Assembly: GCA_905250025.1 (NCBI GenBank)
Contig: CAJNOJ010000100.1
Span: 124,001-188,000, forward strand
Length of the DNA: 64,000 nucleotides
Source of the DNA: Adineta ricciae
Lineage: Eukaryota; Rotifera; Eurotatoria; Adinetida; Adinetidae
Direction: 5' to 3'
Below, piece by piece: positions 8,630 to 63,768 of this stretch. Within the stretch, counting starts at the first letter, position 1. Each line of letters opens with the position of its first letter. The position numbers were made by a program, and so were the translations under genes. The notes under the pieces were generated by a model that was given only the letters and a program-made list of their open reading frames with translations, ran no database searches and was not told the DNA's origin.

Positions 8630-8921
8630 TATTTTTGGTCGCCCGACCGAACAGAAGAGAAACACAAGTCGATAACATTCTTTCTTTTTCGTTTGTTTAT
8701 TATATTATGATTTTCTATTTTGAAAAACGAAAGCACTCACGAATGTGGAAGATCTAAGAGAGAACAAAACAAACAAATCATATGAATTGTGTCTTAAAAG
8801 AGCGTCGAATGCAAAAGGAATAATTTTCTCTCACTATTTCAATGACAAGTTGAGCATTATGTACATATGTTAATGATATTCTCGTTCGAGTGATGCAAAT
8901 AGTACATGTTACAAGAATGTT

Positions 8922-10009: not shown

Positions 10010-10960
10010 TCATTCAAACACACGAACAAGTAGACCGTAGGGTACAATAGATGCTCGCATGACAGTAAAGTATTCAATTTCACTGTTGGGAATAATTGGA
10101 CATATACGTTTGGCACCTGCGCCAATCGTTTCCGATTGAATTGTATACGTTTGAGGTTGTTGTCGACATTGAAGGACAATTTTGGCTTGATACAATTTTC
10201 CTGAAGGTGATTGGAAAGGAACCGATCGGCTGTAGACATCACACCCTGAATATGCAATAGTCGGTGATGTATATACTTCGTATTTGTCTGGAATATGGCC
10301 ATTAGGTATACGAATTTTATCTCCACTAATAGTTCGGTCTCCTGGAATCAGAAATTGATGGTGTTCGATAATCGATTTTGCTGCTTCCGGCTTCGTACCA
10401 TGATAGCTTACAACCCATTTATTCCAAATGTCCTCTACTGCTGCTTGTGCCTGATCAACAATCAATCCAAAACGAACCCATCCACGTGGAATAACATATT
10501 TCGAACCTCCTTCTACCAGGAAATCTCTACTAGTTATTGAATAACAGTTTTCGCAATAGCATCGATTATATTGTCGATTGAAAAGTCCTTTCGAAATTCC
10601 CAATGTAAGCATATACCGTAGACAAAGCGTAAAATAAGCACAAGGACGAAATGTCGCAGAACTTGGTGGACGAACGAAATCTACTTCCGAACATCTGCGT
10701 CGATCTAAAGCGGGCGAACGGCTTCTGTCACGTGATTGCGGTTCACTCTTTCTATGTGGTAGACTGGCAGCTAGTTCAAATGGGCGTTTCGGAGCAGAAG
10801 ACGAAGAATCTGACTTTGCAACTGCAGCTGATGGAGCGTCATCGGAAGCGACATAGAAGAATTTTCTCGAACATTTGCATGTTTCACAAAATGCAGTTTT
10901 ATTAAGCAGTGGTTGAGATGTTGATTTCGATGTTTTACATATAATGCACTTGTACAGCAT
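10010..10960 (-). CDS. Zinc-binding protein with a C-terminal HGT (PARP-like?) domain
   Basis: One open exon of about 316 codons. An N-terminal CIIC..CETC pair suggests a small zinc-binding knuckle. An S/R/P-rich linker follows, then CYCENC and a C-terminal domain of about 200 residues. That domain contains RGWVRFGL, SYHGTKPEAA, a PGD turn, VYTSPTIAYSG, IVLQCRQ and a final GLLVRVFE. HGT followed by a Y-containing strand resembles the nucleotide-binding HG(T/S) and Y motifs of PARP-type ADP-ribosyltransferases, but this is inference. I chose the ATG at 10960 because upstream sequence looks like an intron end; an in-frame ATG at 11011 is possible. It is transcribed away from a paralogue at 11388. 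Confidence 0.65.
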   Translation of the reverse strand: MLYKCIICKTSKSTSQPLLNKTAFCETCKCSRKFFYVASDDAPSAAVAKSDSSSSAPKRPFELAASLPHRKSEPQSRDRSRSPALDRRRCSEVDFVRPPSSATFRPCAYFTLCLRYMLTLGISKGLFNRQYNRCYCENCYSITSRDFLVEGGSKYVIPRGWVRFGLIVDQAQAAVEDIWNKWVVSYHGTKPEAAKSIIEHHQFLIPGDRTISGDKIRIPNGHIPDKYEVYTSPTIAYSGCDVYSRSVPFQSPSGKLYQAKIVLQCRQQPQTYTIQSETIGAGAKRICPIIPNSEIEYFTVMRASIVPYGLLVRVFE

Positions 10961-11387
10961 GATATAAAGATCTAAAATTACAAGGATATATCTTTCACTG
11001 AATTTTATCAAAAGAAAAAGTCAGAATCGGTCCTAATCAATGTGAAGAAGTCAATAATAGAATTGCTTTCGACGTGCATAATGTACTTCTATAATGCATT
11101 GATAACTTTGCATGGTCTTGTTACCAGGAACTATTTTGCGATGAATTCGATTATTCATTTGTTTATTACGTCAGCTAGTAAAAGTTTTGCCTTTTACACC
11201 ATTTAAAACAGTTATCACATATATTTTTACATTTTCTCTGAGAGAATGAAACACTGATAAGCATTGTCAGTTGTAGAATAGAAAAACAAATATTTCAAGT
11301 TCTGCTTGTTGTCTAGGAAGTTGATAAAAGCATCTAAGAAAGCAAAGCAAATCGCGCAGGAAGAATCACACTCAGCAAAGACGGATC
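10961..11387. promoter_or_regulatory. Shared upstream region of a divergent paralogue pair
   Basis: About 430 bp lie between two outward-facing genes that share the HGT domain. The region is AT-rich and contains no other gene. It must hold both promoters, though I see no single clear core motif. Confidence 0.4.
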
Positions 11388-12545
11388 ATGCCTTCAATTT
11401 ATAGCTCGAATTTTGAAAACGACACTTTGCCGACCCCTTACGCAAACAATAATTTTACAACGGAAATTGACCTCCGATTTACGATACCACTGACATTCAA
11501 AGCGTTGACAACTTCAAGTAAGATTCTCAACGAACGTGCGGCTATTTATAAAATGGAAAATATTCTCTAATGTAGCACTATTAAGAGCATCAAAGAATAG
11601 TCTTAGCGGTGGTGCAATCGCCGGTATAGTGATCGGCGTGATCATATTTGTCATTATTTTATGTGCTTTAATATATTACTTTAATAAACGATTGAAATCT
11701 TGTAAGTTTTCTTTCTATTTTTATGTTGAAACTTGTATCGAGTGTAAAGTTCAATTTAGCTGAACAACGATCATCAACTAGTGTTGCGCTTCCATTAAAT
11801 CCGGCTCCTCCGGTTGTACCTCAGGCAAGTCTTCACCCGTGAGTATACAAAGATCGATTTTTTATATTGCTTTTATAATCGCATTTTATCTATATTTATT
11901 CATCGAACTTTCAGTGTGCCAACTGCACCGAAATCACCAAAATCTACACCAATATTTCATTGCCGAAAACCAATCTGTGATGCTTACCTCAAACAGTTTA
12001 ACATTTCACTTAAGTTTTTCGAATCGAAACATAACAAATGTTTCTGTAGAAAATGTCATAATACGTCGACTCCGAACATCGAATGTGGATCTTGGTGCAA
12101 TGAACTACATGGTTGGACTTGTTTCGGCCTATCTGTAAATGAAGCACATGTGAAGCAATGGCATATCTTTCGTGACTGGAAGATCAGCTATTATGGGACA
12201 ACACCCGATCGATTGTTCTCAATCATACGTAATCGTTTCATTCCGTTGGATGGTGAGGTACTTCAAGACGGAATTAAGTTCAGCAGTGGACATTCAGATA
12301 CTTCATGTTGGAATACGTCACCATTCCTAATATGCGCTAGTCAACCAAAGTTTAGTCCTGGTTCAAAATTTCATGCACCTGATGGAAATAACTACAATGT
12401 TCAAGTAGTACTGCAATGTAGACAAAAACCAGATACAATTATTGGTGAGACAGACACAGCACCCAAGAAAAATACTGTATGGAAAACACAAGCACGAAGC
12501 GCCATAATTCCAATTGCACTCCTTATTCGATTACAGAAACAGTAA
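11388..12545 (+). CDS. Single-pass membrane protein with the same C-terminal HGT-type domain
   Basis: Four exons fit in phase: 11388-11517, 11576-11701, 11760-11838 and 11915-12545, giving 321 residues. Exon 2 encodes a glycine-start transmembrane helix (GGAIAGIVIGVIIFVIILC) followed by KRLKS. A proline-rich linker comes next, then CRKPICDAYLKQFN and HNKCFCRKC, and the C-terminal domain with GWTCFGL, SYYGTTPDRL, SSGHSD, NTSPF, VVLQCRQ and IALLIRLQ. It is a paralogue of the protein at 10010-10960, but the HGT histidine is a tyrosine (YYGT) and the second tyrosine region is changed. If the domain is PARP-like, this copy is probably inactive. The membrane segment is absent from the neighbour. 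Which face of the membrane the domain occupies cannot be told. Confidence 0.75.
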
Positions 12546-12860
12546 CGTATATTTAATATACTAAGTAAAATCCTTACCGCTGATTTTGGAGGTGCGATTT
12601 ACTGACCTCTTCTTTTTTTTCAATGAAAAGTATTGTTGTTTTGGAAACATAATCTTGTTTTGCGAATGAAATTGAGTGCAAACGAAACAAAATTAGTTTT
12701 TAACTTTGCAACACACCACTAATCTCTTACCTTAATAACCGAAATATAAATCCCTTCATTTGTTTTGAAAATAAAAGACGTCAACATGCCATATAATACA
12801 TCAGCAAAGGCCTAGTTCTTCATACACATATATTTTTATTATCAGCATATAGTTGCTAAG

Positions 12861-14597
12861 ATGAAATATATTTGTGTGCTTCTCGTTCTTTTTTTCATCG
12901 TCTCTACGGAAACGAAATTGTATGAGACATATTTTCGTCAAGAGATAGAATCCGAGAGTCGAGCAGCGAGTTGCAATGAACTTAGTTGTAATAATGGTCG
13001 ATGTATTGAAGAAGCGCAAGGACCACGGTGCATATGTGACGAAGGTTTTGTTGGCAGCAATTGTGATCAAGAAGGTTCTGATTTTTATCATCGAACTTCA
13101 CTCATACATGGACTTGCTGATCCTGATATTCTAGCAGTGAATGATGATCTATTTTATTTGACAGGCACATCCGATGCTTTCGTTTTACCAATCTATCAAT
13201 CAACAGACTTAATCAATTTTCAATTAAAAGTTACATACAATCCATCGACTATTGATACTATATATAATTATTGTTTCATTTGGGCACCTGATCTTTCGAA
13301 ACGTGGTACTGGTTATGATTTATATTTCTCTGCTCAACGTGTTACGAAAGGTGCAGCGTGTCCAGCTAGTGGACAAGATGTGACAACATTTCTTGCTAGA
13401 GCTATTGATGATAATCTCGTCTTTAGCGTACCGGTGCTCGTTGATTTTGGACCATCAGCTCCTAAAGGAAGAATTGCTGCAGGTTGTAATGGTGATGGCT
13501 GTTTAAAAACAGTTCGAATCGATGCTGCCGTAGTCGGTCCAGAAAATGATCGTTGGTTTTTTTACGTATGGTTTACAGCAGGCAATAATATAGCTGCATT
13601 TCCCTTTTCCTCGCCAACAAGTATGATAGCGAATGCGGGACCCGCGTCTTTCTCTATTCCAACTAGTGACGAAAAGATTAATGAAGCACCTGAAGTATTT
13701 TGGCGCGATGGACAGTACTATTTCTTTATTAGCACAGCGTTCTTTGACAGTCAATATGCTATGTTCTACGTAATGTCGCCCACGATCGCTGACTTGACCC
13801 GTAAGCGCGCAGTACGTACACATTCAGTTGCACAACGAAATTCTGCTGGACGGCTCGTTCAAACTCATGGACATAATTCTATAGTAATGCGACGAGGTCA
13901 ATTCTTCAATGTATTTCACCAAGGTGTTTTTGACAGCTCAGGACGAATGATCCGACGAGATACATTTAAACAACGCATTGCATTCCGATCGGACGGATCT
14001 ATACATACATTGAATACTATCAATATTCGTTGGACTCAACTTCCACTATATCAATATTCGATCGATATTGTCAAGAAAGATGGGTCTTCGGTAGGTCCTT
14101 GTATTGCAGTCGGACGTATTGGAGCGACGCTTGAAACAACTTATACAGGTATATGTCCAGATGGTGGTAATCAACTGATAGATAAAGGTGACATTGCCGC
14201 ATTTCGATTATTCTATTCGATGAACCAGGTGTGGAAAGATTTCGTCGAAGTAAAATACGATGGAGTCTCAGATCAATTGGCCATTTATTTGTCAGGCGGT
14301 ATCACAAAACAAGTTGCTCTTCGATGGAACGAACGTGTAACAGGTACACGACATTCTCTTGATATTCGTCGTAAAAATGGAACCTGGATCGCTCCATGCG
14401 TTAGCGAAGCAGTTATCGGCACTCAAATAGAATATGTTTTTGATGGCAATTGTCCAGCGGCAAAAGTGTTCGTCGAACCTCGTGATATAACGTCGATTCG
14501 AATATGTTCTGCGGTAAATAATGATTGGGCAAAAGCAATATGTGGTAGTGTCGATTATAATGGAAGCACAATTCATGTCTTTGTGCGTATACCATAA
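12861..14597 (+). CDS. Secreted EGF-like / GH43-type glycoside hydrolase
   Basis: An intronless 578-residue frame. A signal peptide covers residues 1-18. An EGF-like domain has cysteines 38, 43, 48, 57, 59 and 68. A five-bladed propeller of GH43 type follows: ADPDI with the putative general base D87, WAPDLSKR at 141-148, the modulating aspartate D221 in VRIDAAVV, the putative acid E275 in NEAPEVF, and GHNSIV. Two tandem repeats of about 80 residues close the protein (each with a PC...GxxGxxxE...G.CP pattern), of no family I know. GH43 enzymes cleave arabinan, xylan and related plant polysaccharides, which suggests digestion of algal or plant material. Lack of introns among intron-rich neighbours suggests horizontal acquisition, with the EGF domain added. 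A truncated copy lies at 2660-2938. Confidence 0.85.
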   Translation: MKYICVLLVLFFIVSTETKLYETYFRQEIESESRAASCNELSCNNGRCIEEAQGPRCICDEGFVGSNCDQEGSDFYHRTSLIHGLADPDILAVNDDLFYLTGTSDAFVLPIYQSTDLINFQLKVTYNPSTIDTIYNYCFIWAPDLSKRGTGYDLYFSAQRVTKGAACPASGQDVTTFLARAIDDNLVFSVPVLVDFGPSAPKGRIAAGCNGDGCLKTVRIDAAVVGPENDRWFFYVWFTAGNNIAAFPFSSPTSMIANAGPASFSIPTSDEKINEAPEVFWRDGQYYFFISTAFFDSQYAMFYVMSPTIADLTRKRAVRTHSVAQRNSAGRLVQTHGHNSIVMRRGQFFNVFHQGVFDSSGRMIRRDTFKQRIAFRSDGSIHTLNTINIRWTQLPLYQYSIDIVKKDGSSVGPCIAVGRIGATLETTYTGICPDGGNQLIDKGDIAAFRLFYSMNQVWKDFVEVKYDGVSDQLAIYLSGGITKQVALRWNERVTGTRHSLDIRRKNGTWIAPCVSEAVIGTQIEYVFDGNCPAAKVFVEPRDITSIRICSAVNNDWAKAICGSVDYNGSTIHVFVRIP

Positions 14598-48145: not shown

Positions 48146-51100
48146 CTACAATTCAGTTGAATTTGTATCAAAAAGCCCTTTGAGCATTTGTTTCCGCTTT
48201 ATTGTTACGATATAAGCACGGTTTTCTACCACTTCTGGATGATTCGGAGGTAAAGTTTTTAATAGCTGTTCAACTGATCTTTCTGTAGATGCAATAGCCT
48301 CTTCAAATCTTCCTAAACCTGTATATGTTGTTGCAATGTTGAAATGTGTTACTGCAATGGTTGGATGATTTTCTGGTAGTGCCATTAATTCAATTTCTAA
48401 ACTTTTTAAGTAGCATGGTAACGCATCAGCATATTGTTCTTGCCGATAATACATAGAACCTATGTTATTATAGAGTGATGCAAATGACGGATGAGTGGCA
48501 GGTAAATATTCTAATTGACAGTCTAGAGCGCGTCTAAAATGGACAAGTGCATCACCGTATCGATGCATTTTATTGTAAATATTCCCGATACTATTGTTGA
48601 ACGAAGCTAGTGCTTGAGGATTTCGAGGTTGAACAAGACGTTGAATTTCGAGAGCTTTGCTATAATATGTCAAAGCCAAGTCTAACTTTTCTTGTAAAAG
48701 ATATGCGTCAGCCAAATTATCGTAAGTTGATGCAAGATCTGGATCATTTGGTTGATTAATTTGTTGAAGGATTTTTAATGCACGTTCAAATGACTTAGCT
48801 GCTTCTTGATAATTTCCCTGCTTCAATTGTACAACTCCAATATTATTTGAATACGATGCAATTGCGTTCAAATTCGGATTTTGAGAATTAATCTGTACAT
48901 CGAGCGCTTTTTGATGGTATTCGTTTGCTTTATCATATTCTTCCTGACGAAAATACATTGAACCGATATTATTATATGTTGGAGACAATTGTACTGAATC
49001 AGCTGGAACAAAGCGAAGAAAGGTCGCTAATGACAAATGGAATAACTCGACAGCACGTTTATGGTCACCACGTGCATGACACGTTGCACCAAGTATGTGA
49101 CACGATGCTGCCACTGAACCTTGAAGATTTGGGTCGGTTTTCAATGTTTCATCATCAAATATCATTTGAACTAGTTGTTCTGCTCGTGCTTGTTGTCCCA
49201 TCAGCATCATTAATTTAATCAAAGTAACAAATGGTGCAGCGCCCTTCACTTCGTTGCGTTTGGCTTGCAGGAGTTGTTGTAAAATTCGTTCATTTTTAAT
49301 TTCCACTAACGTTAAATAAATGGATGCAATATTATTCTCATTTTGATGAACCTTCTCGATTTGTATGATTCGTCCCATCAGACCGATATTTAATAGAACA
49401 TCATTGTCATCATTAACTCCGTAACGAAGTGAACTTGTATTCGCATACTTTGTATTAGATGTTAGATTGAAATGAAGAATAACAGGAATATATTCTTCGG
49501 ATAAAGTCGGGAGGCTTCGTGCAATTTGAATTGCTTTCGAAAGATCAGTTGTTCCAGATAGAAATTGACTAAAGACAAGTAAATCGTTAGTTGAAGAATT
49601 TTTTTGTAAATCTTCAAGGTCATTTTGATGAATTGTTTGACCAAGATAAACAAGAAAATCTTCTCCTGTTGGAATCGATATTGATTCATTGGATATTTGG
49701 TGATATAGATGCTGAATAAATAAACGAAGGTTGAATAGAACATCAGCTTCCGGTACACGAAGTGCTTTGTTCAACATCTAAAGATAAAATAATAACACCG
49801 TTTAGTGGTTAATTTCATCTAAGTTTACTTTGGAAAGAAAACATTGTCTTGTAAACCACCAAATAGCTCGACTTTTTTCATAATCATTTTCGAACTCATC
49901 AATAATCACTAATTCAGCATCATTTCCTTCATATTCTTGGCGAGAAAAGCTAATCAATTCTTTCAAAGCAAATTCTGTTTCTTCATCATCAAGAATAACT
50001 TCACTAATTAGTTGACAATAAATAAACATTGGATCTGCCATAGAAGAGCTCGATGGTATATTCATATAAGCGATTAAATCACGTGTAATATCATTGATGT
50101 CGCGAGCAACTTGTTTGTAAACTTCTTCGATGTCTTGACAATATCCTTTGACTTTCGATTGTTTATCAGAATTGATTTGTTCATGATTATCATCAACTAA
50201 GATGTAAACTGTAAAAACTTGTTGTAGATCTTTAATGCGTGACAGAATCGAAGTGCTAAATGCATCCGAGAGAATGAAAATAACTTTTTCATTAGATACT
50301 CCATTGATAAAAGCCGTGCAATCATCGACATCATCGAAGACTTTTATGAAATTTACTAGACTACGAAGATGTTTTATAGTTGATTCATCGGGAGGAGTAG
50401 AATGTAAATACACAAGAATAAAATATTCCACATTGCCTCTTTCTCGAGGACCACTGCCAATGATCGATTCTGGACGTTCAACTTGTTGTTCTAAAGGATA
50501 TTCCACATCTATTTGTAAAATGCGAAACGATTTCAAGTTATCACTTACGTCGCATAATTCCGAGTCGTGTCAATAATGCTTGCGTTGCATCATCTACGAT
50601 CGATGTGTGAGGAGCAGAATTATTACTGAGTGCAGACATTGGTTGCATTAATTGATCGCTTTGATTAGTATCGACGTGTGACGATAATGTTCGAAGGAAT
50701 TGAACAGTGACATTAGATTGATTCGATTCGTGTTGATGATGATCATCATTATCTGAATCAGAGTGAGAATCTAAAATAAGGAAAAAAAATAGTCTTTGTT
50801 TGTATATTCATTGTTGTGAAGAGAAACCTTTCTTCTTTTGGATATTTAATGATTCTGATTTTGTGTTTCGTGGACTTTCCATGGTTTCTTCATGTGTGTC
50901 CAACGGTGTTTCGTATGCAGAATCGAGTAATTCGGAAACAGATAACATTGCTGATAGTTGTGGAGGACCTAAAAGACACAAAATAATTTTGCTTTTTATT
51001 TTAGAATTGATAATCGATTGAATCAAACCGTATATTCGTTTCGGCGGCAACGGCGGCGCTGTTGACTGTGGTGTTGGCGATTCAAGATCTGTTGACGGTA

Positions 51101-52667
51101 AAGTCGGTAGAAAACTTGCTGAAAATTCTTCGGCGGAGTGTGATTTTATCGGTTGTGTTTCCGATAGCTCAGAAATGTCTGCCGAAAACCCTTCGCTTAC
51201 TAAACAGAAAAAAATCAATCGGATTTCACTAAGCGATAAAATCAAACTGACAGGCTTTGTCGTTATCACGTGAAGGAATTGTGAGTGTTGTTGGTTTCTT
51301 TCTCTGAAATAAAATAAGAGACAATTATCTTGAATTGATTCAAATTGATTTCAATCAACAAACTTCAGTTTTTCGATCATTGGAGATCGAATGTGAATCT
51401 GAGTGGATACTCTCGGCTTTTCGTTGTCGATTATTTAATGAAATAGGCGGCTTCGATTTACGAGTTACCTGGATGGAATTTAAACCTTTTCTTTTCGTAT
51501 TTAAACAGAATATCCTACTTGAACAGTTTGTTTTTCACACTGCTCTAGGCTCGTTAATGATGATGATGATCGTTTTATCGTTGCATATGAATGATTTCGT
51601 CGTGGTGCAGGAGATGGACTTGATGAACTCTAAAACAATATATCGATAGACTACATTTCCTTCGAAATTATGAACACAGACTGATGAGCTATTCAATTCA
51701 CATCTAAATAGAAAACAGATTTTCAAGAGAAGCTTTTCGTTGTCAAACTGCGTACTCATGGCAAGGTTGTGAGCCGACAACACGTTCAATGCAGAAAAGA
51801 TGATTTTTATCTTTACTTATCAATGAATGTTCACAACAAGCAATCATTCGATCTTCAAGTGAATCATTGATGAAAAATTCGAAATGAATTCTTCCATCAT
51901 TATGATAACGTTTCGATTTCAGTGTTAATCGATCTTGAAAGAAAGAAATTTATAATGAGAAAGATTCACTTGAAAATCAAGTCACTTACCTCCATATTTC
52001 AAACAGCCTTTGAAAACTGTTTTCCCACGTTGAACAATCATGATTTCATCGCCATGCTTATTCGCTTTGGCATTGCGATATGTGATTGTCACTAAAGAAC
52101 ATTCTCTTGATTCACTATGCTAAAAATTGCCAAATCGAACATGTTAATTTCAAAGATCTCAACAACGAACTCGATTCGTCCGATGGCGATGACTGTAACA
52201 TTGAGAACTGCTGCCCGATCTATGTCTTGACTACAGTTAAAAATAATGAAAGTTTTGAATACAATAAAAAGAGAGAGTTCAGTTTACTTGTTCTTCACGA
52301 AATCTTGACGGATCGTACCGATATTGGCTGTCTCGACTGTATGACTGTGACCGACTATTTCGTCGTTCGGAATACTAAATCGAAATTTGAAACATACCAT
52401 ACGGAATAAAAGTGAATGTTTAACGAACATCACGCATTATCGATTGAAAATGTCGTCGAAGTTCATTTTCACGTTGTCTTTCAATATCAATTGCTCTAAA
52501 GGGTTTTATGAATAGAGATCCTTTACTTCAAATTCTCCAACATACTGTTCGAGTAAATCATTCGTCAACCGACGCCGTAGATAATAATCCATTCCTTGAG
52601 ACAAATCTAGATGTATAGATGCGATGGATTCATTAGTAAAGTCTTCGAAACGGTCTAAATCTATAAT
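48146..52667 (-). CDS. ERICH3-like (DUF4590) / ART-like / TPR fusion protein, left copy
   Basis: The 3' exons are firm: 51029-51199, 50828-50968, 50549-50770, 49829-50508 and 48146-49777 join in phase. They give a Ser/Pro-rich linker (GPPQLSAML), the bdelloid N-terminal domain (RGNVEYFILVYL...), MLNKALRVPEAD, an ADP-ribosyltransferase-like domain (VYLGQ, FSQFLSGTT, NDVLLNIG) and about seven TPRs to residue end FDTNSTEL. Upstream, a DUF4590 domain reads VTITYRNAKANKHGDEIMIV, VFKGCLKYGD, HFEFFINDSLEDRMIACCE and LFCIERVVGSQPC, as in ERICH3. Before it are SR-rich exons and the helix RAIDIERQRENELRR. Small exons at about 51.3-51.5 kb link the two parts. The 5' end and a single-base frameshift near 52525 are uncertain. 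Confidence 0.7.
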
Positions 52668-52775
52668 AAAATCGAAACAGAATTTTTTGTTCTCTATAAA
52701 GAGAGCAACTATCAAAACTATTTTCTTTCCTTCTCTTTGTATAGGAATATTGCACGTTGTTCTACAGTCGACCAC

Positions 52776-53781
52776 ATACTTCTATTCACTATACAACATT
52801 GAAAAAATACTTCGAACAGAACGCAAGAAAAAGGAAAATGAAGGTTCCTCCAGTTTTTTTTTCTCTTCCAAAGCAAATAGTTTTAAAGTTACACAGCTAT
52901 GCTTGTCTCTTTTTTTGATGATGATGATGATGAGTGTTGTTTTCTAGAAAAATAACAGAATAATAAGGAGAAACATGTACAGTTATGATGACCTTCGGAT
53001 ATCAGAAGAAATAAAAACACTGAGAAAAAACTCATGAAAATATGTTTTGCGAAATAGACTGATTTTTCACGTTATTCGAAACAAAGATGTTGACTTTCCA
53101 AAAAATCGACTGAGACTTGCTACTAGAAAATCATGCATAAGATTTAATATGTTACCAAAGTGATTTTCAGTCTTTATTTCAGGCAGATTAATATTTGAGC
53201 AACAATTTTGCTTTTGATAAGAGGCACGTTTTGGACTGTCAGACTGTATATTAATATTGAAATGTGATTTTTATCTAAGAGACTTGTCAGATTTCACTTC
53301 CTAGCGAGAAAATTCCAACGTGAGATCTTTTCATTAAAATTTACTTGTCATCTTTTTATGATTGGTTACCTTTTCACCGTGATAGATAAAAGAATCATCC
53401 TATAAACATGTAAATTATATAGACTCAAGAACTGTTAATATTGTATGTGAAAATGTTGTTTCTTTTCGAAATTATGCGTATTAAAACGAGGAGCCAATTT
53501 ATTAGAAATACTCGGCGATATAGTATCTTCGTCGAAGACTTTCATATCTCAAAAGATGCCACTCATATTCATAGACGTGTGTGTAACGAAGGTCAGTACT
53601 GCATACCGTGAGGGTTTTTATCGTTCTTACATTATTTACTGTCTTATTTCGTGTTGTTATTTTTCGCCAGAAGCGTAGCTACTAAGTCACACGTTATTAA
53701 AACTACAAGAAACGACAGAACGTGGAAAAGAGAAAAAAACAAAAATATATCGTCACAATTTAGATTGAATATGTGCTAATC
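52776..53781. other. Centre of the inverted gene pair, non-coding
   Basis: About 1 kb of AT-rich DNA between the left fusion gene and the RFFL gene. Short (GAT)n run near 52917-52933. No gene was found. Confidence 0.4.
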
Positions 53782-54811
53782 ATGTCAACCAATACTCCTG
53801 AAGAATTGCCCAATTGTGAACAATGTTCTCAGCAATATAATCTTTTTCGGCGAAGAGTGAGTTTTTCTTTATCAGAATATTCAAAAGAAAAGAAAACACA
53901 GATAAAAATGGTATTTAGAAACAATGCCAACTATGTGGACAAACATTTTGTTCCAAATGTACATCGAAATCTATACCTTCAACTAAAAAACGTGCTTGTC
54001 CAATTTGTTTATTGATTATTAATGATCGTACTACTCATGAGCAGTTAGGATCTATTCGTATCAAACATCTTCGCGCATATTTAATCTATTCGAAAATAAT
54101 CACCTCGAATCGTTTATTAGAATCATGCTTTGAAAAACAAGATTTAATCAATTTAATTCAATCGAGAAAACAACAAACACCCGATGAAACATATGTTTTT
54201 GTCCAAAGACCGAATGAAGATGTAAGAAAATCTTCGTTTAGGTCACGGAATATATATTTCTTTGAGGTTTTTAGATACCAGCACCTACCCCTACGATAGA
54301 AATTCCAAATAATGTTCAACCACAGCCTGAGTCAGTTCCTGAACCATTGCCTTCGCCACCACCTTCTATGCCAATTCCTTCATCATCAAAGATTGCGTCA
54401 ACTCGGAAAACATTAGCTGACTTGTCATCATTAGAATCGATTCAAGAATTAACTGTTGGTCAATTAAAAGATGTTCTAAATCAAAATTTTGTTTCATATA
54501 AAGGATGTGTTGAAAAGCATGAACTCATTGCTAAACTTCAATTGTTATACCGAGACAAACAACAACAGAGTGAATCCAATACATCTAGTAAATCTATTTT
54601 TCATATCAAATTTCGATTCATTTTACTTGTTATAGTATCAAATGGACAATCCGATGAAAATCTTTGTAAAATATGTATGGACGAATCTATTGATTGTGTT
54701 TTTCTTGATTGTGGTCATTTATGTACATGCATTCGATGTGGAAAGCAATTATCGGAGTGTCCACTTTGTCGTTCATATATCGTTCGAGTTGTCCGTGTTT
54801 TTAAGAGCTAA
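53782..54811 (+). CDS. RFFL/RNF34-like RING ubiquitin ligase
   Basis: Four exons, 53782-53856, 53919-54221, 54275-54587 and 54636-54811, join in phase to 288 residues. A FYVE-like zinc finger opens the protein (CEQCSQQYN, CQLCGQTFCSKCTSK, ACPICL). Two SAP-like helical blocks follow (IRIKHLRAYLI and ELTVGQLKDVLNQNFVSYKG). The C-terminal RING reads CKICMDESIDCVFLDCGHLC, then CIRCGKQLSECPLCRSYI, ending RVVRVFKS, almost the same as the end of vertebrate RNF34/rififylin. Those ligases target caspases, p53 regulators and endosomal cargo. A proline-rich linker lies between the second and third exons. It sits between two divergent paralogues and is not itself duplicated here. Confidence 0.92.
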
Positions 54812-55432
54812 CAAACTTTTCTTCGTCTTTCATTTCAACGAACAAAAATATAAATAAATTTTTCAAGTCTGAATCCTTCTCGTTCAAGACGATGTGGTAT
54901 CATATACTGTTTATTTTTAAGTTGTCATTAACAACAATACAATTCGAAGGCCGTTTATTTCTTTTTTTCTCTCTCTCTTTCTCTATTGATTACATCAAAA
55001 CTTGTTTTCTTTCTGGCTATGTAATAGAAGAAAAATAAAGAAAAAGAACAGAAACCACTAGCCGTCATTCATTTTTCTTTCTTTTGCTCCATTAACATTA
55101 CAGAAAAAAAAACACAGAAGAAGAGAAAGGAAGAGAATGTGAGCAATACCTTTTTCTTACATATGCTTCGTTATTTAAAATGAGTAAAAAGGATTTATGT
55201 GTGCAATCTAGCTGCGTTTATTCTACGAAATTTCTTTAAGTACGGAAAAATATTTACGATATTAGTCATCCGACATCTTTCTTATCACTAATATTCATAA
55301 ACACGTGCACAACATTCGTTTGTTGTAAGTTGGAAAAAGGAAATGAGAGAGGACAGAAGGGGAACGCTTAACATTTTTATTTTGATTTAACTCGAATAAA
55401 TGGAATATTTCAGATTTTCTTTGTAAATTTGA
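54812..55432. other. Intergenic, C/T- and A-rich
   Basis: About 620 bp with (CT)n and poly-A tracts. It contains the RFFL polyadenylation site (AATAAA near 54850) and the promoter of the right fusion gene. Confidence 0.4.
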
Positions 55433-58191
55433 ATGGCTTATTCGCATGAACATCGACGTCAACGACGATATCGCCATTCGCCATCATCTTCACAAAGTGT
55501 CATGTCATCGCGAGATGATGAAGAGCTCGAACAAGATATTATCGAACGGTATGAACGAAAAGATGCCCTTCTGCGAAATCAAATAGGTTTTATGTCGTTT
55601 AGAGCTTTAGAAATTGAAAGAAAACGAGAAAAAAGTTTACGCCGACAATTTGAATATATTGTTCATAACGTTAAAGTTTGTATTTCTTTGTCAGGCAAAT
55701 GAACACATGTGTTGTCTTTCTCTCTCTCTCTCTTAGAAATTAGAAAGACGCCGATATCAACGTCATCGTACACGATCGCCAACATATTATGATAGTTCAA
55801 GTGGCCCGTCTTATCGAAAAAGTTCACATTCTGTATGGAAATAATCGAGAAAATATCTTTTTTTGTAAACAGTACTGTTCGTTTAGTATCGAAATTCGTC
55901 ATCCGAACGTTATTACGAATCGAGTTATTCGCGATCAGCATCAACATCCAGACAGACGATTCCATGTCAAGTGACAATGGTTTATCGGGGCATAGGAAGT
56001 GAAAGACATGGTGATGAAATTATGGTCTTACAGGAAAATATCATTGTTTTCAAAGGATTCCTCCGTTCCGAGGGTTCGTTGTTCGAAAGATCTTTTGAGA
56101 AACTGTAATCTTTTGGTTTTCAGAACCATTTAAGTTTAAATTTCAGCGGCGTCATCGACAATTGTTTGTTAGGCTGGAATTTTTTATTAATGAACTGTTT
56201 GAATGTCGACTATCAATCGACTGTGAAAGAAAACAAGTCGATGAAGAAAACGAACTCTTTCAATTACAACATCTTGAACCGTTAAAACGTCATCAAAGGT
56301 ATGGATTGCATTGTAACATTTCTTCCTTTCTTAATATGAATTTCCGTTCCAGACGTGACGAAGATGATGATCGAGAACGAGATGTCAAAAAACCAGTAAG
56401 AAAAGAAATACCTTCAAGCACTCGACAACCATGTAAGTTCGAGATTGAAATGTTTTCTTGAATGAAAAGGATTTTGACTTTTATAATCCAGTAGTGAATG
56501 GCGATAGAAGTCCAACCGTTGATAATGAACGAGATCGCCATAAACCTTCATCGAATCAAGTAAAATTTCTTTTTGTCAAAAGTATTCTTTCACGGAATGA
56601 AACTTGGCATTTTATAGACACCAGGAGAACAAAAGAGAACAACACGGGAAAATTCGTATACAAAACAACAGTCTCGACGTAGCCCCAGTCCACCAAAATC
56701 ATCCTGTAAGACGTCCCGCTTTTCAAATGTAAAAATTTTAAAATAAATTTACGTTTCTTCAGCAAAAAGATCCAATGGATCAGCAACTCAGGTAAGTTTT
56801 GTTTTCAAAAATCACAAGTACAACTAAATTTGTTACATCAGTCCAATGCATCCAACTCAAAACCATTAACCAGTCCTGCAAAAAGTTTGTATTAAACTCT
56901 TTCTTTCTTGCGGAAGAAATCCCTTCTTTCTCTAGAACCCATACTTCCCAAAGCAACTAGTTCAGATGACGATAATGTCAAAACACCAGTAAGACAACTA
57001 GACAAATATTGTTGTTTTTCACCATTCAAACTTTTGTTTTTCAGGTGAGAACCACTCCAACCAAACCAAGTTATGGTAGATGAGTTTTGCCTTGGTAGAA
57101 ATATTTGCTTCGATGTGTTTTCTGTAACTAAAGGCCCTCCACAATTATCAACATTTGCTCGTTCTGGTTCGGAATCAAATTCCGAAGAATTGCCTAATTC
57201 TACTCTACAAAACAACGAGAAAAAACCTCCGACAACAGAATCACCCAAACCATCGGAATCTTCCCCAGAAAAGAAAGATGAAAAAGTAGATGACGACGAC
57301 GACGAAGAAGAAGAAGAAGAAGGCAGCAGCGGTGGTCGTGGTGGTGCAGGTTTTGGCAGTTTTCTCCAGTTATTACAAGCTGTGTCCGGCGGTGCTATTC
57401 GTGTTCCATCAACCAATGATGATGGAGACGGTGTGCAGGGATTACTCGCTCGATTAGGAATTATAAACCGTAAGTTGGATGTGTGCCCTTTGAATTGACT
57501 GTTGTTGCGTGATGAATATAATTTAGAAACAAGTTCTCGAAATAAACTAGCGAATTTGACTCCTCGACAAGAAGGAAATGTTGAAAATTACCTTCTTGTT
57601 TACTTGGATTCGTCGCCACCGGATGATCCCATTGCTCAGCGACTTCGTGGTCTGATAAATTATTTCAAAGTGTTCGATGATCCAGATGATTGCGTCGCAT
57701 TCATTAATACAATCATCAATGAGAAGGTGATATTCATCGTCACGGATGCGCTCGGAGATCCTGTTGTATCACGCATTCAAGACCTCCAGCAACTATTTGC
57801 TATCTATGTTTTGTGTCAAACAGAAGAACAAGCAGACAATTGGTCAACGAATCAACCGAAAATTCGTGGAATTTACACGGATATCAATGAAATTCTTGTC
57901 AAAGTGAGAGACGATATCGAAGCTGATGAAAATAGTTCGTTAGCATTTACACACGCATTACCAACAACTAATGTAAAACAAGAACCATATTTTGTCATCA
58001 ATCAAATCATTAAAGAAATCATTCTCGATTCCGACGAAATGACTGAAGCCAAAAATGAGCTTCTTCATTTCTGCCGGACAGAATATAAAGATAATCCTGA
58101 ACAATTAGCTTTCATCGAACAATTCGAAACGAATTATCAAAAAGAAGATGTTCTGCAATTCTTTCAACAACAACAACATTTTCTATACAAA
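55433..58191 (+). CDS. ERICH3-like (DUF4590) fusion gene, right copy, 5' part
   Basis: Thirteen exons fit in phase: 55433-55669, 55737-55832, 55887-56073, 56124-56298, 56353-56432, 56492-56559, 56618-56705, 56763-56791, 56842-56884, 56936-56988, 57045-57075, 57134-57469 and 57527-58191. They give an Arg/Ser-rich start, the helix RALEIERKREKSLRRQFEYI, SR-rich linkers, and DUF4590 (VTMVYRGIGSERHGDEIMVL, VFKGFLRSEEPFKFKFQRRH, LEFFINELFECRLSIDCE). Next come small Ser/Thr/Pro exons, GPPQLSTF, an acidic run, and the bdelloid N-terminal domain (EGNVENYLLVYLDSSPP, RIQDLQQLFAIYVL). After LYK a GTTAG donor is cut by the N at 58197; the same donor continues correctly at 62537. Every junction from DUF4590 to the ART-TPR part is in frame, which supports one fused gene. 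Confidence 0.75.
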
Positions 58192-58196
58192 GTTAG

Positions 58197-58197
58197 N
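58197..58197. other. Single-N assembly join 3
   Basis: About 219 bp before this base are identical to 62319-62536 and the following intron start. Sequence after the N is unrelated. This looks like an unmerged contig overlap; the true continuation of the gene is probably at 62537. Confidence 0.65.
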
Positions 58198-58669
58198 TAA
58201 ATCGAGTGGACTGAAAGTATGCAAAGTATCATCATCTAAGTACAAATAATTTTACTTTCAATCAAGATATTTGTGCACATTTAGTCTCCATTTGTTTATC
58301 AATACAGCATCCTCAACGGATACAACTGTGTAGTAATAGTCTGTACGTGATGTTCGAAAAAAATATATAACCATAGGATACCGGCTATAGTCAAGCGTAT
58401 TAGTATGATAAATAAAACATTATGTTCGATGTCTAGAGGCGTAATAATTAATAACTGATCTTCATCAACGAACTTTGAACTAATCTCCATGCACCTGACA
58501 ACAGGACTGAACTTCTTTCTGGTCTTTTAGCTTTGGTAAGAAACATGCCTGTGAAATAGGGCTTTCCAATGGTACTCAAGGAATTTTTTGAGAGCTCATA
58601 TACGATGATCAGAAGGATCCGAGCGATTTAAAGATAAAAAGCGAAATATTTCCCTCAAGTGCAATCTAC
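58198..58669. other. Non-coding start of the inserted block
   Basis: About 470 bp without a supported gene. A minus-strand 63-codon frame at 58299-58490 is not convincing. Confidence 0.35.
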
Positions 58670-59155
58670 ATACGAAAACCATTATCTGCACTCGTAGAAT
58701 TGAATGTATCACAAGTAGAAACAAATCTCGATGGCCTTCGTCGCAAACTCATTCCTATTCCATTAATCAAGAAGCAGTTCACTGTTCCTATAAGGTAACT
58801 TTTCGGACATCTACTCGATCGAGTACAAAATGGGAGAAGAATTCCACAAGTCATTCAAGTCACACGAACACAGCTACCAATCGTACCTGCCTTCGCAATA
58901 ACTACATATAAAGCACATGGACTCACGATGAACAAAATTGTAGTCGATCTTCAAATTCCATTTCAGACATTGCAAGTAGTGTCAGTATATGTACCACTCA
59001 GCAGAGTGAAGAGAGCGGAACATATAGTCATTCTTCGACCTTTTGATATGAAGGTTCTACCAGTACGACCTTCTCTTGCTCAAGACGCTAGACTGAAACG
59101 TCTAGATGAACTTGACAAAAAGACAAAACGAGAGTGTACCTTTTTCATTTCGTAA
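58670..59155 (+). pseudogene. PIF1-like (superfamily 1) helicase remnant
   Basis: One frame reads ALVELNVSQVETNLDGLRRK, then a TAA, and continues through RTQLPIVPAFAITTYKAHGL, VVDLQIPFQ and SVYVPLSRVKRAEHIVILRP to a stop. PAFAITxxKxxGLT is helicase motif V and YVxLSRVxxxExxxIL is motif VI of PIF1/RecD-type helicases. Such C-termini occur in Helitron Rep-Hel proteins and in PIF1 paralogues. The N-terminal motifs (Walker A and B) are absent and an in-frame stop is present. It is a dead fragment, likely from a transposon, although no Rep domain is visible to prove it. Confidence 0.65.
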
Positions 59156-59627
59156 CTATGTGTAAATCGATACTTTGCTAATAGTCTAGTTTCATGGTAG
59201 GCATATAAAATGTAATATAATTTGAAATGATCTTAAAATAATTATTTATAAATGTTCATTTCCTTTATCTCTATTTACACTTATGTTAATTATTATATAA
59301 TTGTCTGTTTTTCGGCCATTGTACCAAATATTGCCTATCGTGCTTTTTCTGCTTCGTTTTTTGATGTAATCATCCATAATCCTTCTAATTGTATTGGTAT
59401 TTCTTGAAAATATCTAATCTATATGGAAAATAAACTTATATACACAATAATGCATTAAAAATATAACATCCGCAAGCGACATTTCTACGAGAAAGAGCTA
59501 AACGAATCTGCCTCGACAAGCGTTACTTGTCTTCTTATCAAAGAAATACTATCAGTTGTTAACAAAATTCTAACTTTGATAGGACGCGTCAAAACTCTTC
59601 TCACATTAATTCAGATCATGAAATACA
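59156..59627. other. Non-coding AT-rich sequence
   Basis: About 470 bp; nothing supported. Confidence 0.35.
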
Positions 59628-59820
59628 CTCTAAAAAAATAGGAGCTTCACCGAACCTGTATCGAGGGGAAGATCCTTTGAGGTTCCATACCGATTTACTG
59701 AACCGAAAAAAGTTTGATACATTGTGCGCCAATCATGTTTTAGTTCGACAAATCGATATGGAACTCCAGAAGATCTTCCCTTCGATAAAGGTTCGGTAGA
59801 GCTCCTATTTTTTCTAGAGC
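59628..59820. mobile_element. Foldback (hairpin) MITE
   Basis: About 190 bp made of two inverted arms of roughly 70-75 bp. The left arm runs AAAAAATAGGAGCT-CACCGAACCT onwards. The right arm, read in reverse complement, repeats AAAAAATAGGAGCTCTACCG and continues with TATCGA-GGGAAGATC and GTTCCATA-CGATTT. The loop is about 45 bp. No frame. The arms differ at several sites, so it is not newly made. Confidence 0.75.
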
Positions 59821-60628
59821 TTAAGAAAAGGTGTATGCAATTTCATGAGTTAAATTGAACACTGCTGAACTAAGTCCAATAAATAATAATGATCTTCGAT
59901 TTTAAACTAGTAAACACTATTTCAGGAAGCGATGTACAGGAAATATCCGTATCTTCACCGCAGTCTAGAAAGCCCAAAGGCGCAATCAATATGACTCATC
60001 TTCTTCCTGATGGTAGACGCCAATGTAGAGTTGTAGGCAATGACGATGACGGGCCAATTGAAAGCTTTACTTTATGATCTTATGTATGAGAGTCTTCTTC
60101 AGCCTAGGATACACGCCACTGCTGCAATTCGTTTTATTCTCCGATGTTCCCGTAAGAAATACAAGTACTCATTTATACACATATACTTTATGGAAGAAAT
60201 CATCGGTTTTCAGCAACTTGTGCCTGATTCGTTGATTATTACGGCGTTAATAAATCCTTTCTATTCCATTTAATTAAAACACGAAATATTGTTGAAGTAG
60301 ACATTTAAATATCTACAGAATTTAGTTGATTGAAAATGAACGTTCAATAGAAATAGCAACAAAGGACAGATTTCTATTCTTAATACGCCTGACTTACTGG
60401 AAAAACATATCATACACTAGCGTTCTCTGTCCTTTTTTCGTGTTTTCCGCAAAAGTTATTCAGAGGACATCATGGCTTAACAAAGAACTCATTGTCACTG
60501 TCAGTTTGACTATAAAAATTATCATAAATTTGAATTTGCCATCGGAATTTGAAAACATGTGTCGTGAAAAGGTATCATTTCTGTTTTTTTAGTTATTGTA
60601 TAGATACAAATTCTCAGCGAATCTGATA
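59821..60628. other. Inserted block, unassigned
   Basis: Short frames at 59889-60077 (KLVNTISGSDVQEISVSS) and 60326-60592 look weakly coding but have no recognisable motif or splice chain. Confidence 0.3.
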
Positions 60629-60965
60629 ATGACTACGAGCGCAAAGGTGCTAACTGTTAATAACGATGAGGTACAAAACGTGTAGATATTGATCACAATC
60701 CTTTCATTTTGCTTATTATAAAACAAGCCAGTGGACGAAAATGGGAGCAAAAGTGCATTGTTTGAGTACGTACGGAAACTGCAAGATGAAATCAATGATC
60801 GAGACAAGCAAATTGCCAGCCTTCAAGCACTGGTCGATAAGTTAGCTAATGACTTAAGACAATCCAAAGAAAATTGAAAGAAATGGAAGAAGAATTAGCA
60901 AACCGACAACACTTGCAAACAAAGCCAAGCGATAATTCGAATTCTTCAATCGATCGTAATGCATA
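60629..60965 (+). pseudogene. Coiled-coil protein 5' fragment with frameshift, right paralogue
   Basis: Exon 60629-60670 (MTTSAKVLTVNNDE) joins exon 60728 onwards (VDENGSKSALFEYVRKLQDE, IASLQALVDKLANDLRQ). A TGA follows SKEN, but the next frame continues KLKEMEEELANRQHLQTKPS, so one base is missing in an A-run. At 60966 a MITE begins and the coding sequence is lost. It is homologous to the minus-strand fragment at 46741-47031. The heptad pattern indicates a parallel coiled coil like the N-terminal zipper of some kinases, but identity is unknown. Confidence 0.6.
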
Positions 60966-61154
60966 CCCAGGTCAACGAATCCGATGAAATCCGATAGGAT
61001 TCCTGGTGACGGAATTGCATCGGATTCTGACTGGAAAATCCAGTCATTTGTTGCAAATTTTATGAGCGTTATTTTTAGCTAAGTTCGATGATGACCCTTA
61101 GAAAATTCATAAAATCCGCGTTTCGGATCCGAGTATGGGATTTGTTGACCTGAG
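60966..61154. mobile_element. MITE-like element, family B, copy 1
   Basis: 189 bp with ends CCCAGGTCAACGAATCC and GGGATTTGTTGACCTGAG, flanked by TA on both sides. The interior is rich in GATCCGATCGGAT-like palindromes. It truncates a coiled-coil reading frame. Confidence 0.8.
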
Positions 61155-61198
61155 TAGGTACAATTTCACTGGATCGATATCTACATAAAGGCTAGTGT

Positions 61199-61799
61199 GT
61201 TGGTTCAGATCAATAATTCCTTCGTTGATGCAAACTTTGATTCTCAATCATGCGCTTGATTCATATTCATTCTTTTGTGTTGAATTCATCTTATTACTTG
61301 ATTTCTGTGTTTTTTTTTTGTGGAATATGTTTCTATTCACGTATTCAGTTGATTGCATTGTATATTATTGATTCATCTGTACAAAAAACATGCGACGAGG
61401 AATAAAGTTTTTCAATTCAGTCGATTTGTTCTAGAGAAAATAAAGCTGAAGCATAAGAGCTATTGAAATGATTACAGCACAAATAAGGTGCAGTATTGTA
61501 CAACATTCCTATATAAATAAAATAAAAAGTCGGCCTCTGGTCCCTAGAGTTCGACGGGATCTCTTTTTTTCATCCCGGTCCCGATCCCATTGAAATATTT
61601 TTCCGGCATTTTGATAATGACATCATTGTTTACTGATAACATGTGCCCAAATTGTGACCTTTACAAAATAATCTCTCGGTATTAGAATAGGGAGGGTCCC
61701 GATCCCGACAGACTTTACTAGTCCCAACACAGTTGTCATAATGAGCACTACTCTTTTCAAAAAAGCGAATTTCACGTATTATTTATAGCGTTTTACAAT
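61199..61799 (-). repeat. Dispersed flank repeat, copy 3 (inverted), with a GATCCC-rich insertion
   Basis: 61320-61532 and 61743-61795 match, in reverse complement, parts of 42400-43020. Between them, 61546-61740 is unrelated, with GGTCCCGATCCC motifs near each end, and may itself be an inserted short element. The repeat lies just downstream of a coiled-coil fragment, as copy 2 does. Confidence 0.6.
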
Positions 61800-62119
61800 C
61801 CCAGGTCAACAAATCCGATGCTGGATCCGATCGGATCTTACCGGATCCGACCATCCGACAAAATCCGATCGGATATCTGGAAATGGAATTGCATTGGAAT
61901 CCGACTAGAAAAATCCCGTCGGTTGTTGCAAATTTTATGAGCAATCTTTCTAGCTATATTCTATGATGATCCTTAGAAAGTCCAGGAAATCCATGTTTCG
62001 GGTCCGACGAGAGCCGATCGGATCCGAGACCGTCGGAATCCAATGCGATTCCGTCACCAGGATTTCATCGGATCCGTCGAATTCCTGTAGGATCCGAGTA
62101 TGGGATTGTTCGACTTGGG
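61800..62119. mobile_element. MITE-like element, family B, copy 2
   Basis: 320 bp from CCCAGGTCAACAAATCC to GGGATTGTTCGACTTGGG, flanked by AT on each side. It consists largely of repeated GGATCCGAT and CGGATC units. It inserted into the dispersed flank repeat. Confidence 0.8.
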
Positions 62120-62137
62120 ATCTTGAGGGTGCCTTGA

Positions 62138-62318
62138 GAAAAATATTTGCTTCGATGTATACGCTTTCACTAAAGGTCCTCCACAATTATCAGCATTTGT
62201 TCATTCCGGTTCGGAATCGAAGTTCGAAGACTTGCCTACTTCTACTCCGCAAAACAACGAGAAAAAACCTCCGACAACAGAATCGCCCACACCCTCATCC
62301 TGCTATCTATGTTTTGTG
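62138..62318 (+). pseudogene. Internally deleted copy of the fusion gene's linker exon
   Basis: 62138-62297 matches 57097-57260 with about one change in ten, giving GPPQLSAFVHSGSES and PTTESPTPSS. It then jumps to 18-20 bp matching the CTATCTATGTTTTGTGTCAAA region at 57799 and again to the segment matching 57979. The frame is lost at each jump. It represents another, diverged paralogue or a collapsed assembly. Confidence 0.6.
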
Positions 62319-63768
62319 TCAAACAAGAACCATATTTTGTCATCAATCAAATCATTAAAGAAATCATTCTCGATTCCGACGAAATGACTGAAGCCAAAAA
62401 TGAGCTTCTTCATTTCTGCCGGACAGAATATAAAGATAATCCTGAACAATTAGCTTTCATCGAACAATTCGAAACGAATTATCAAAAAGAAGATGTTCTG
62501 CAATTCTTTCAACAACAACAACATTTTCTATACAAAGTTAGTCGAGGAACTTCACTCACTGTTCAACAACTTCTTCTCTTCAATTTAGATGTTAAACAAA
62601 GGCTTTCGCATACCCGAAGTTGATATTCTATTCAAACTGCGTTTGTTCATTCAAAATCTTCATCAATTCATTATTGCATCATCGAACAAGTCAACCTCCT
62701 TCTCAGAACCAATTCACTTCGTCCGAAGATCATGGAGAGATTCTTTTTGAAATCGATGTTTCCAATAGCAATAGTTATATGCTCGTCGACGAACAAGTCT
62801 TAGTTACATTTGGTTTAGTCACACGAGTCATAAGTATTGACAAAGATAAGAACGGAAAGACAATTGTACACTTGACAACCATTACTGGAGATGATCGACA
62901 GTATGACAAGATTATTGAGCCAATGAGAAAAGAAACACGTGCGCCGCATCCATCACTTCGAATTGTGAAATTGTTTGTTGAACTAGAACAGTATTCCTAT
63001 GCAGTTCACCTCGGTCAAATTTTGTTAGCGGACTCTCCGACGGCGAAAAAAGATCCTCTCTTGGCATTGGCACGTACTTATCATTCATTGGGAACAGCGT
63101 TGTATGAAAAAGAAGAATTCGATGAGGCACTCTTTATAATCAAGAAATCTCATGAGATTTACTTACGATTTCTTCCTGAAGATGCGCCGCAGTTATCACC
63201 AACATGGAATAATATGGGTTCGATCTATTTACGACAGGGAAATACTGAACTAGCATTGGAATATCATCAACGTGCCTTGAATATTCAGTTGAAATCACCT
63301 AGCCCAGATCTTCCATCGATCATCTCCTATTCAAATAATATTGGCGGAGTTTACTTAAAACTAGAACGGTATGATGAAGCACTTGTTCACTTTAAACGTG
63401 CCTTACAAATTGAAGTACAAACTCTACCGAAAAATCATCCAGAACTAGCAGGAACTTATCATCGCATTGGTGGTGTTTACTTTCGACAGAATAATTACGA
63501 AAAGGCACTGGAATATTACGACAAAACCCTCGAAATTGAACTGGCTGCTTTACCCGATCGTCATCCCACAGTTGCTGTCACGTATCATAATCGTGGCACA
63601 GCTTTAGAAGGTCTAGGCAGACTCGAAGAGGCTGTTGAAAGTGCCGAGAAAGCTGTAGAGCGTTTATTGAAGACTCTCCCGAAAGACCACACGCAAGTAC
63701 GAATGAATCAAGCGTATGTCGATCGATTAAAACAAAAACTATGGGTTAAACAATTGTTTACTACTTAA
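62319..63768 (+). CDS. ART-like / TPR 3' part of the right fusion gene
   Basis: Exon up to 62536 repeats the end of 55433-58191 exactly. After an intron (62537-62588) it continues MLNKGFRIPEVDILFKLRLF. The first half of the ADP-ribosyltransferase-like domain, including the R and S motifs present in weakened form at 48.1-49.8 kb, is missing, and the frame shifts by one. From about 62690 the frame is open to 63768: ILFEIDVSNSN, VDEQVLVTFGLVTRVISI, then about six TPRs (WNNMGSIYLRQGNTELALEY, SNNIGGVYLKLERYDEALVH, YHRIGGVYFRQNNYEKALEY) and a stop after KQLFTT. The TPR array should bind other proteins. Whether the frameshift is real or an assembly error is unresolved. Confidence 0.7.

Follow-up and report, generated by a model that had tools for sequence, protein, structure and literature searches.

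Two genes that lie head to head in the genome of the bdelloid rotifer Adineta ricciae join a head of the ERICH3 type, which contains a DUF4590 domain, to a tail of the bdelloid ADP-ribosyltransferase–tetratricopeptide repeat (ART–TPR) family. Both are found in a 64,000-nucleotide stretch of DNA, called the window here, which spans C100:124001-188000 of the 130-Mb genome, and we hold with high confidence that the head and the tail belong to one gene. What is new here is that the ART domain of the fused proteins nearly always lacks the full Arg-Ser-Glu (R-S-E) catalytic motif and that one subfamily keeps it. An RNF34/rififylin-like RING gene (53764-54811) separates the two composite genes. Throughout, C-numbers denote contigs of this genome, L-numbers stretches of contigs and P-numbers public bdelloid protein predictions.

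The left copy is a single 15-exon gene with introns of 50-60 bp. Its product begins with an ERICH3-type coil and DUF4590; a 291-residue linker then leads to a CheY-like fold, behind which come a degenerate ART domain and the TPRs:

48146-52592, minus strand: left composite gene, 15 exons (exons 1-14 from spliced alignment, the last exon from the codon-model chain and its open frame)
52592-52546, 52495-52429, 52374-52288, 52230-52171, 52119-51990, 51933-51756, 51703-51682, 51629-51519, minus strand: left exons 1-8
51468-51364, 51303-51252, 51199-51029, 50968-50828, 50770-50549, 50490-49829, 49777-48146, minus strand: left exons 9-15
52429-52592, minus strand: ERICH3-like N-terminal coil (AIDIERQRENELRR); a similar motif, AIDMERARQAEIKRK, is seen by eye in the ERICH3-like model on C57
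51756-52119, minus strand: DUF4590 head, two exons with a phase-1 intron within (PF15257, 25.9 bits, E 9.6e-6, below the 27-bit cut-off)
50549-51703, minus strand: linker exons, with the ends ..YGPPQLSAMLS.. and ..LTRLGIMR, conserved relative to bdelloid proteins
49829-50490, minus strand: CheY-like domain and the helices that follow it
49282-49777, minus strand: degenerate ART domain, approximate borders (hhalign and motif table)
48149-49090, minus strand: TPR repeats, approximate borders (Pfam TPR_12, E 5.6e-51)

Exons 1-14 (52592-49829) align to the A. ricciae protein P0005 with 95.2% identity over 685 residues, and a codon-based chain gives the same plan. The GT..AG intron ends are required by the aligner and thus add no evidence for the splice sites. 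Codon-model chains misplace some exons of the right copy; the window exons are taken from spliced alignments to P0005 and P0067.

From the head to the CheY-like domain (55604-58194), the right copy follows the plan of the left one in 13 exons. They align to P0067, a partial A. ricciae protein, with 99.8% identity over 642 residues, and this confirms the unbroken phase that an earlier note on this DNA had read from the letters. The same note had the gene run on intact to 63768, which the window sequence does not support: the CheY-like exon is followed by an N, ~4 kb of other DNA and a truncated tail with a changed frame.

55604-58194, plus strand: right composite gene, head to CheY-like domain (spliced alignment to P0067), with possible further 5' sequence from ~55433
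55604-55675, 55737-55832, 55887-56073, 56124-56298, 56353-56432, 56492-56559, 56618-56705, plus strand: right exons 1-7
56763-56791, 56842-56884, 56936-56988, 57045-57075, 57134-57469, 57527-58194, plus strand: right exons 8-13
55887-56298, plus strand: DUF4590 head (Pfam, 31.6 bits, E 1.7e-7), without the CCE and CxxC motifs (cysteine motif scan of P0067)
56353-57469, plus strand: linker exons, with an acidic run; as in the left copy, a phase-1 intron precedes GPPQLS (spliced alignment)
57527-58194, plus strand: CheY-like domain exon, 42% identical to that of the left copy
58197, no strand: single N at the break of the right copy; the preceding 225 bp recur at 62317-62541 with 99.6% identity
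62140-63768, plus strand: second copy of the right tail, 5'-truncated; its ART part carries a deletion and changes frame (compare C611, L029 8253-6958, and P0067)

The match of the tail copy to P0067 skips from residue 677 to residue 707 and shifts frame, and the right tail appears to be either a misassembled or a damaged copy. P0067 itself runs unbroken past the CheY-like domain into an ART-like domain and TPRs, so a right-type form with an unbroken tail exists. Inside the ~4-kb gap, positions 58799-59155 (plus strand) weakly match a helicase (Pfam Herpes_Helicase, E 4e-5, under its cut-off) and are perhaps transposon debris. A degraded relative of the right copy occupies L029 6958-9189 on C611, where its ART–TPR tail has ~95% DNA identity; other parts of that contig hold more partial tail copies. 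C611 might have been an intact allele of the right copy, but its linker contains stops and no head lies upstream in the stretch read, so this idea was abandoned and P0067 is used instead.

The DUF4590 similarity is weak in single window exons (19.9 bits, E 7e-4, and 17.1 bits, E 5.5e-3), and a genome-wide search with Pfam PF15257 lists neither window unit. The spliced left head comes just below the cut-off (E 1e-5) and the spliced right head above it (E 2e-7). Scanned whole, the right-type protein P0067 scores 26.7 bits, again just below the cut-off, the left-type proteins P0002, P0004, P0009 and P0010 exceed it with 29-42 bits, and other fused proteins reach up to 67.5 bits; the heads thus belong to the DUF4590 family. 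The coil in front of DUF4590 carries an AIDxERxRExxLRR-type motif in the left model and in left-type proteins, with a similar one on C57 (by eye). The DUF4590 gene models on C57 and C88 resemble ERICH3, and the phase-1 intron within DUF4590 is common to the C57 model, both window copies and C172 (worked out by hand). The C307 composite has apparently retained a longer part of the ERICH3 N-terminus (an AGLI-type stretch, by eye). Among 19 fused database proteins scanned, the CCE motif is present in 18 (it is absent from P0067) and the CxxC motif in 17 (it is absent from P0036 and P0067). A sequence search of the Protein Data Bank with the DUF4590 head alignment returned nothing at E <= 1. The fusion genes are therefore like ERICH3 (C1orf173, PF15257) in the N-terminal coil, in DUF4590 with CCE and CxxC in most fused types and in the position and phase of one intron. 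Unlike ERICH3, whose whole-length architecture has no catalytic or repeat tail, they lack the rest of that protein and carry a CheY-like/ART/TPR tail instead, and so they are not ERICH3 orthologues.

The large exon right after the linker is not the ART part and encodes a CheY-like domain in both copies (a receiver fold, recognised at the fold level); the part homologous to ART starts in the next exon. The TPR_12 profile also matches the truncated right-type tail (E 2.9e-40). Among the solved natural chains nearest to the left TPRs are kinesin light chain and LGN (LGN/Pins). These share the TPR superhelix with the fused proteins, but the relation is by repeat type only, and designed consensus TPRs outscore them by sequence. 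TPR superhelices bind peptides.

Single predicted proteins with both DUF4590 and TPRs exist in A. vaga, A. steineri, A. ricciae, Rotaria socialis, R. sordida, R. sp. Silwood1 and R. magnacalcarata. The first 10 of the 33 matches to the left-model protein are bdelloid: eight (P0001-P0004, P0006, P0007, P0009 and P0010) contain DUF4590 and, at 44-75% identity, cover 93-100% of the model; of the other two, P0005 is a partial protein that includes the head and P0008 (R. sp. Silwood2) has none. A second search gave 35 matches, six of which (P0034-P0039, the C114b group, from Adineta and Rotaria) contain DUF4590. A third gave 23, five with DUF4590 (P0069-P0073, the C114a group, Adineta) and one, P0074 (R. 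magnacalcarata), without; the other matches in both searches are bdelloid or metagenomic ART–TPR proteins without the head. DUF4590, ART and TPR each exceed the Pfam cut-off in P0069, P0070 and P0072. The left linker is 94% identical to that of A. ricciae P0005, 68% to A. vaga P0002, 45-53% to P0003, P0004, P0006 and P0007 and, over part of its length, 36-37% to P0009 and P0010.

The left and right copies have four introns of the same phase in common: one within DUF4590, one where that domain ends, and one each ahead of GPPQLS and of the CheY-like exon. Between C307 and C283, which are near-copies, the ratio of nonsynonymous to synonymous substitution rates (dN/dS) of the linker is 0.30 in frame, as against 1.31 and 0.96 in the other two frames, a rough figure given its 200 codons and 46 changes; gaps occur in none of 13 exons and in three of 12 introns. 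The models on C307, C283, C172, C355 and C114 stand without a spliced-alignment check. The order claimed for both copies, DUF4590-like sequence upstream of ART–TPR on the same strand, thus holds in profile scores and spliced models and recurs in Adineta and Rotaria, and since two rotifer genera share the fusion, the join looks old. The further claim of one composite gene older than the duplication is supported by single proteins in other bdelloids and by the four common introns, with two corrections: the ART part of the window copies has lost its catalytic motif, and the right tail is damaged or misassembled in this window. The combination had been thought undescribed, and in the open-licence PubMed Central (PMC) literature we found no description of the fused architecture, nor of ERICH3 in rotifers. 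The databases already contain the architecture itself, since the proteins are publicly listed with automatic names.

The PF15257 search of the genome gave 20 stretches, grouped into 16 units. By an ART–TPR neighbour test (tblastn, E <= 1e-4, in 9.5 kb fetched around each unit), ten are followed on their own strand by an ART–TPR sequence, six of them on C114 and one each on C283, C307, C355 (its tail cut by N) and C172. The other six, on C57, C88, C196, C4 (two) and C265, are DUF4590 genes without an ART–TPR match. Once the two sub-threshold window units are added, ART–TPR is found downstream in 12 of 18 units; these twelve are not independent, as those on C114 include near-copies with N gaps between them. 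At least seven fused types are present in this genome, and the fusion family is known here only from bdelloids. On C114, L031/L032 (C114:127001-147000) hold a tandem array of three fused types (a, b and c), apparently twice and with N runs, perhaps two haplotypes joined by the assembly. The A. vaga orthologues of the C114a and C114b types, P0072 and P0039, carry the consecutive tags I4U23_003985 and I4U23_003986, so the cluster looks conserved. ART–TPR candidates scored in the genome came to 150 of 772 and 149 of 800 at first look (match lists of 153 and 151).

R-S-E is complete in one of 27 fused rows (one of seven types), as against 15 of 16 genome loci without a head; the sixteenth lacks the R region. 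The head-less sample consists of the 16 loci nearest to the right copy among the 150 scored, plus two on C482 and one on C425. In 1.5-kb flanks of the 16 loci, no DUF4590 scores above 11.1 bits (E 0.075), and the window copies score 41.7 and 58.5 bits in the same scan, with a profile built partly from them. Neither window copy has the catalytic motif. In the left copy it reads YLGQ/LSGT/NDVL, with VYLGQT where head-less copies have YRGQ; the right-type motif, read from C611 and P0067, is YRSQ/YAS/EQVL. R is replaced by L in all 11 left-type rows and is absent from 8/8 rows of the C114b type and 2/2 of C172/C355, and the STS triplet is missing from 26 of the 27 fused rows. The C114a type is the only fused type with a full motif: in all four of its database proteins the R, S and E positions are intact. 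Pfam ART (PF01129) is above the cut-off in P0069, P0070 and P0072, and in neither the left ART region nor P0067.

The degenerate domain is homologous to ART. The left group matches the head-less ART profile with an hhalign probability of 99% (E 7e-18; control region 0.1%), and homology to ART is found at 97-99% in all four fused groups tested (left, C114b, C307 and C172 types; control <1%). Fused and other bdelloid ART–TPR proteins are thus alike in the CheY-like region, the ART fold and the TPRs in the same order; the fusion genes differ by the added ERICH3 head and by the loss of the full R-S-E in six of the seven fused types. Some bdelloid ART–TPR proteins are labelled NAD(P)(+)--arginine ADP-ribosyltransferase in UniRef. 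Passages retrieved from a study of A. vaga under desiccation and radiation (PMC10809525), and from one that has ADP-ribosylation among the genes under-expressed in flight (PMC12220480), contain no mention of the fused genes.

In a tail tree of 49 rows (P0062, P0063, C611, L023, L025 and P0005 left out), a single clade, supported at 100/99, takes in 24 of 28 fused rows. A head-less pair on C482 sits inside this clade, which suggests loss of the head from these sequences. The pair (L045 66-2057 and L046 51-2042) consists of ART–TPR genes with degenerate ART motifs and no DUF4590 head seen; another ART–TPR frame ends ~160 bp upstream. Active-looking head-less genes are the neighbours of the C114a group, made up of four fused rows and P0074, a protein predicted without DUF4590. 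In a first tail tree, P0062 and P0063, labelled solo, fell inside the fused clade and may be head-less predictions of fused genes. Forcing all fused rows together costs 6.9 log units (approximately unbiased test, p 0.051), and in a head tree of 31 rows a branch separates the fused heads from the rest in 48% of bootstrap replicates. The C114a type may reflect a second joining, or a single joining may have been followed by later change.

Several observations weigh against a fused gene with a non-catalytic tail and a ciliary head. R is kept in C307/C283, C114c, C611 and P0067, and E at the last place in C307/C283, C114c, C172/C355 and P0002, so that these R- or E-keeping degenerate ART types may have weak activity. 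The 27 fused rows are interrelated and include near-copies. dN/dS is uneven (0.86 in the DUF4590 exon and, on nine changes, 2.4 in one linker exon), and the DNA identity of C307 and C283 overlaps between exons (0.85-0.96) and introns (0.73-0.98). C283 has an in-frame TGA (L033; the exon matching L034 6613) where C307 has TTC, if the C307 exon borders hold; the codon-model chain splices this exon differently. The right copy is broken within the window, the fusion is known from DNA and from database proteins that are predictions, and the ciliary role comes from the ancestry of the head alone. A whole-protein AlphaFold model of P0002 (10 sequences) is poor, with a mean predicted local distance difference test score of 52, and only its TPR part is used.

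That the DUF4590 similarity arose by chance is suggested by single window exons under the Pfam cut-off and by the spliced left head and whole P0067 just under it; the spliced-head E-values, the scores of other fused proteins and the common phase-1 intron refute this. Since the database proteins are predictions, annotation pipelines might also have merged two neighbouring genes kept in order, but DUF4590 and the CheY-like exon are separated by coding exons and 50-60 bp introns only, the linker has a low dN/dS in one frame only and is conserved between genera, and the introns and their phases are the same, which makes two genes very improbable. As another alternative, the head could target a working arginine ADP-ribosyltransferase in all types. 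The C114a type, which keeps R-S-E and reaches Pfam ART, agrees with this, as do several other types that keep R or E; the L for R in every left-type row, the missing R in C114b and C172/C355 and the nearly universal lack of STS make it a poor prospect.

The ART–TPR family might instead be intracellular sensors of infection or damage, in which the ERICH3 head is an integrated decoy, a bait, and the degenerate ART and the TPRs relay the signal. The family is large and has tandem clusters (C114 and C482), the catalytic motif is lost in fused members, and one head-less pair lies inside the fused clade; plant receptors with integrated domains show such a pattern of expansion, clusters and loss. The likeness to plant nucleotide-binding leucine-rich repeat receptors (NLRs) with integrated decoys is that a host-protein domain sits on a member of an expanded, perhaps sensor-like family. 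Unlike them, the fused proteins have no NB-ARC or LRR in their Pfam tables, and no NLR-type ATPase appears in those of P0002, P0004, P0009, P0010, P0034, P0039, P0067, P0069, P0070 and P0072 (scanned whole). With the head and linker also conserved between genera in the left type, we regard the decoy reading as unlikely, if less so than an enzyme in all types.

The gene structure, the presence in Adineta and Rotaria, the at least seven types and the loss of the motif in six of the seven are properties of the sequences themselves. Beyond them, our proposal is a tentative one, held at somewhat less than even confidence: a bdelloid fusion family whose head docks a non-catalytic scaffold tail, perhaps at cilia, with C114a probably catalytic. 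A duplicated ERICH3-type gene would have given its 5' exons (coil and DUF4590) to a gene of the bdelloid ART–TPR family. The product would be one polypeptide with a coil, DUF4590, a linker (acidic in some types), a CheY-like domain, an ART fold and a TPR superhelix. Its head would dock the protein where ERICH3-type proteins act, in cilia or ciliary transport; one study of vertebrate cells (PMC6848114) places ERICH3 in cilia and reports that it influences how cilia form as well as the transport within them. The tail would serve as a binding scaffold, its TPR groove taking a partner, and the C114a type, with R-S-E intact, would probably still ADP-ribosylate targets at the same place.

The gene between the two composites is not part of either, and its first piece has no Pfam match:

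53764-54811, plus strand: RNF34/rififylin-like RING gene (Pfam RNF34L-like_3rd, E 2.4e-14, and RING, E 3.5e-13, on 54275-54808)

Elsewhere in the window, 10010-11020 (minus strand) and 11799-12545 (plus strand) hold seemingly related open reading frames of the SYHGTKPEAAKSII / SYYGTTPDRLFSII type, with no Pfam match at E <= 0.001. A protein with EGF and glycosyl hydrolase family 43 domains is encoded at 12816-14597 (plus strand; Pfam E 1.6e-24) and may have come by horizontal transfer. A dispersed repeat, open on both strands, is near-identical at 4562-5045 and 8245-8704, and a similar stretch is seemingly present in L029 and L030.

The fusion links a little-understood ciliary protein domain to a bdelloid gene family of large size. 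Little is described of what DUF4590 does; one paper in the open-licence PMC literature names it. As a long shot, a ciliary host-protein domain on expanded ART–TPR sensors would turn these genes into 'integrated decoys' of an animal, on guard at the ciliated corona; it would have been joined at least once to a lineage that became a pseudo-enzyme and perhaps again in the C114a type, whose ART looks active. The corona is the surface where filter-feeding bdelloids meet microbes, and it would be guarded by decoys if this were true. As the motif is mostly lost in fused copies and kept in the sampled head-less ones, the two sets offer a direct contrast for the function of the ART–TPR family, one that also bears on the choice between bait and location tag for the DUF4590 head.

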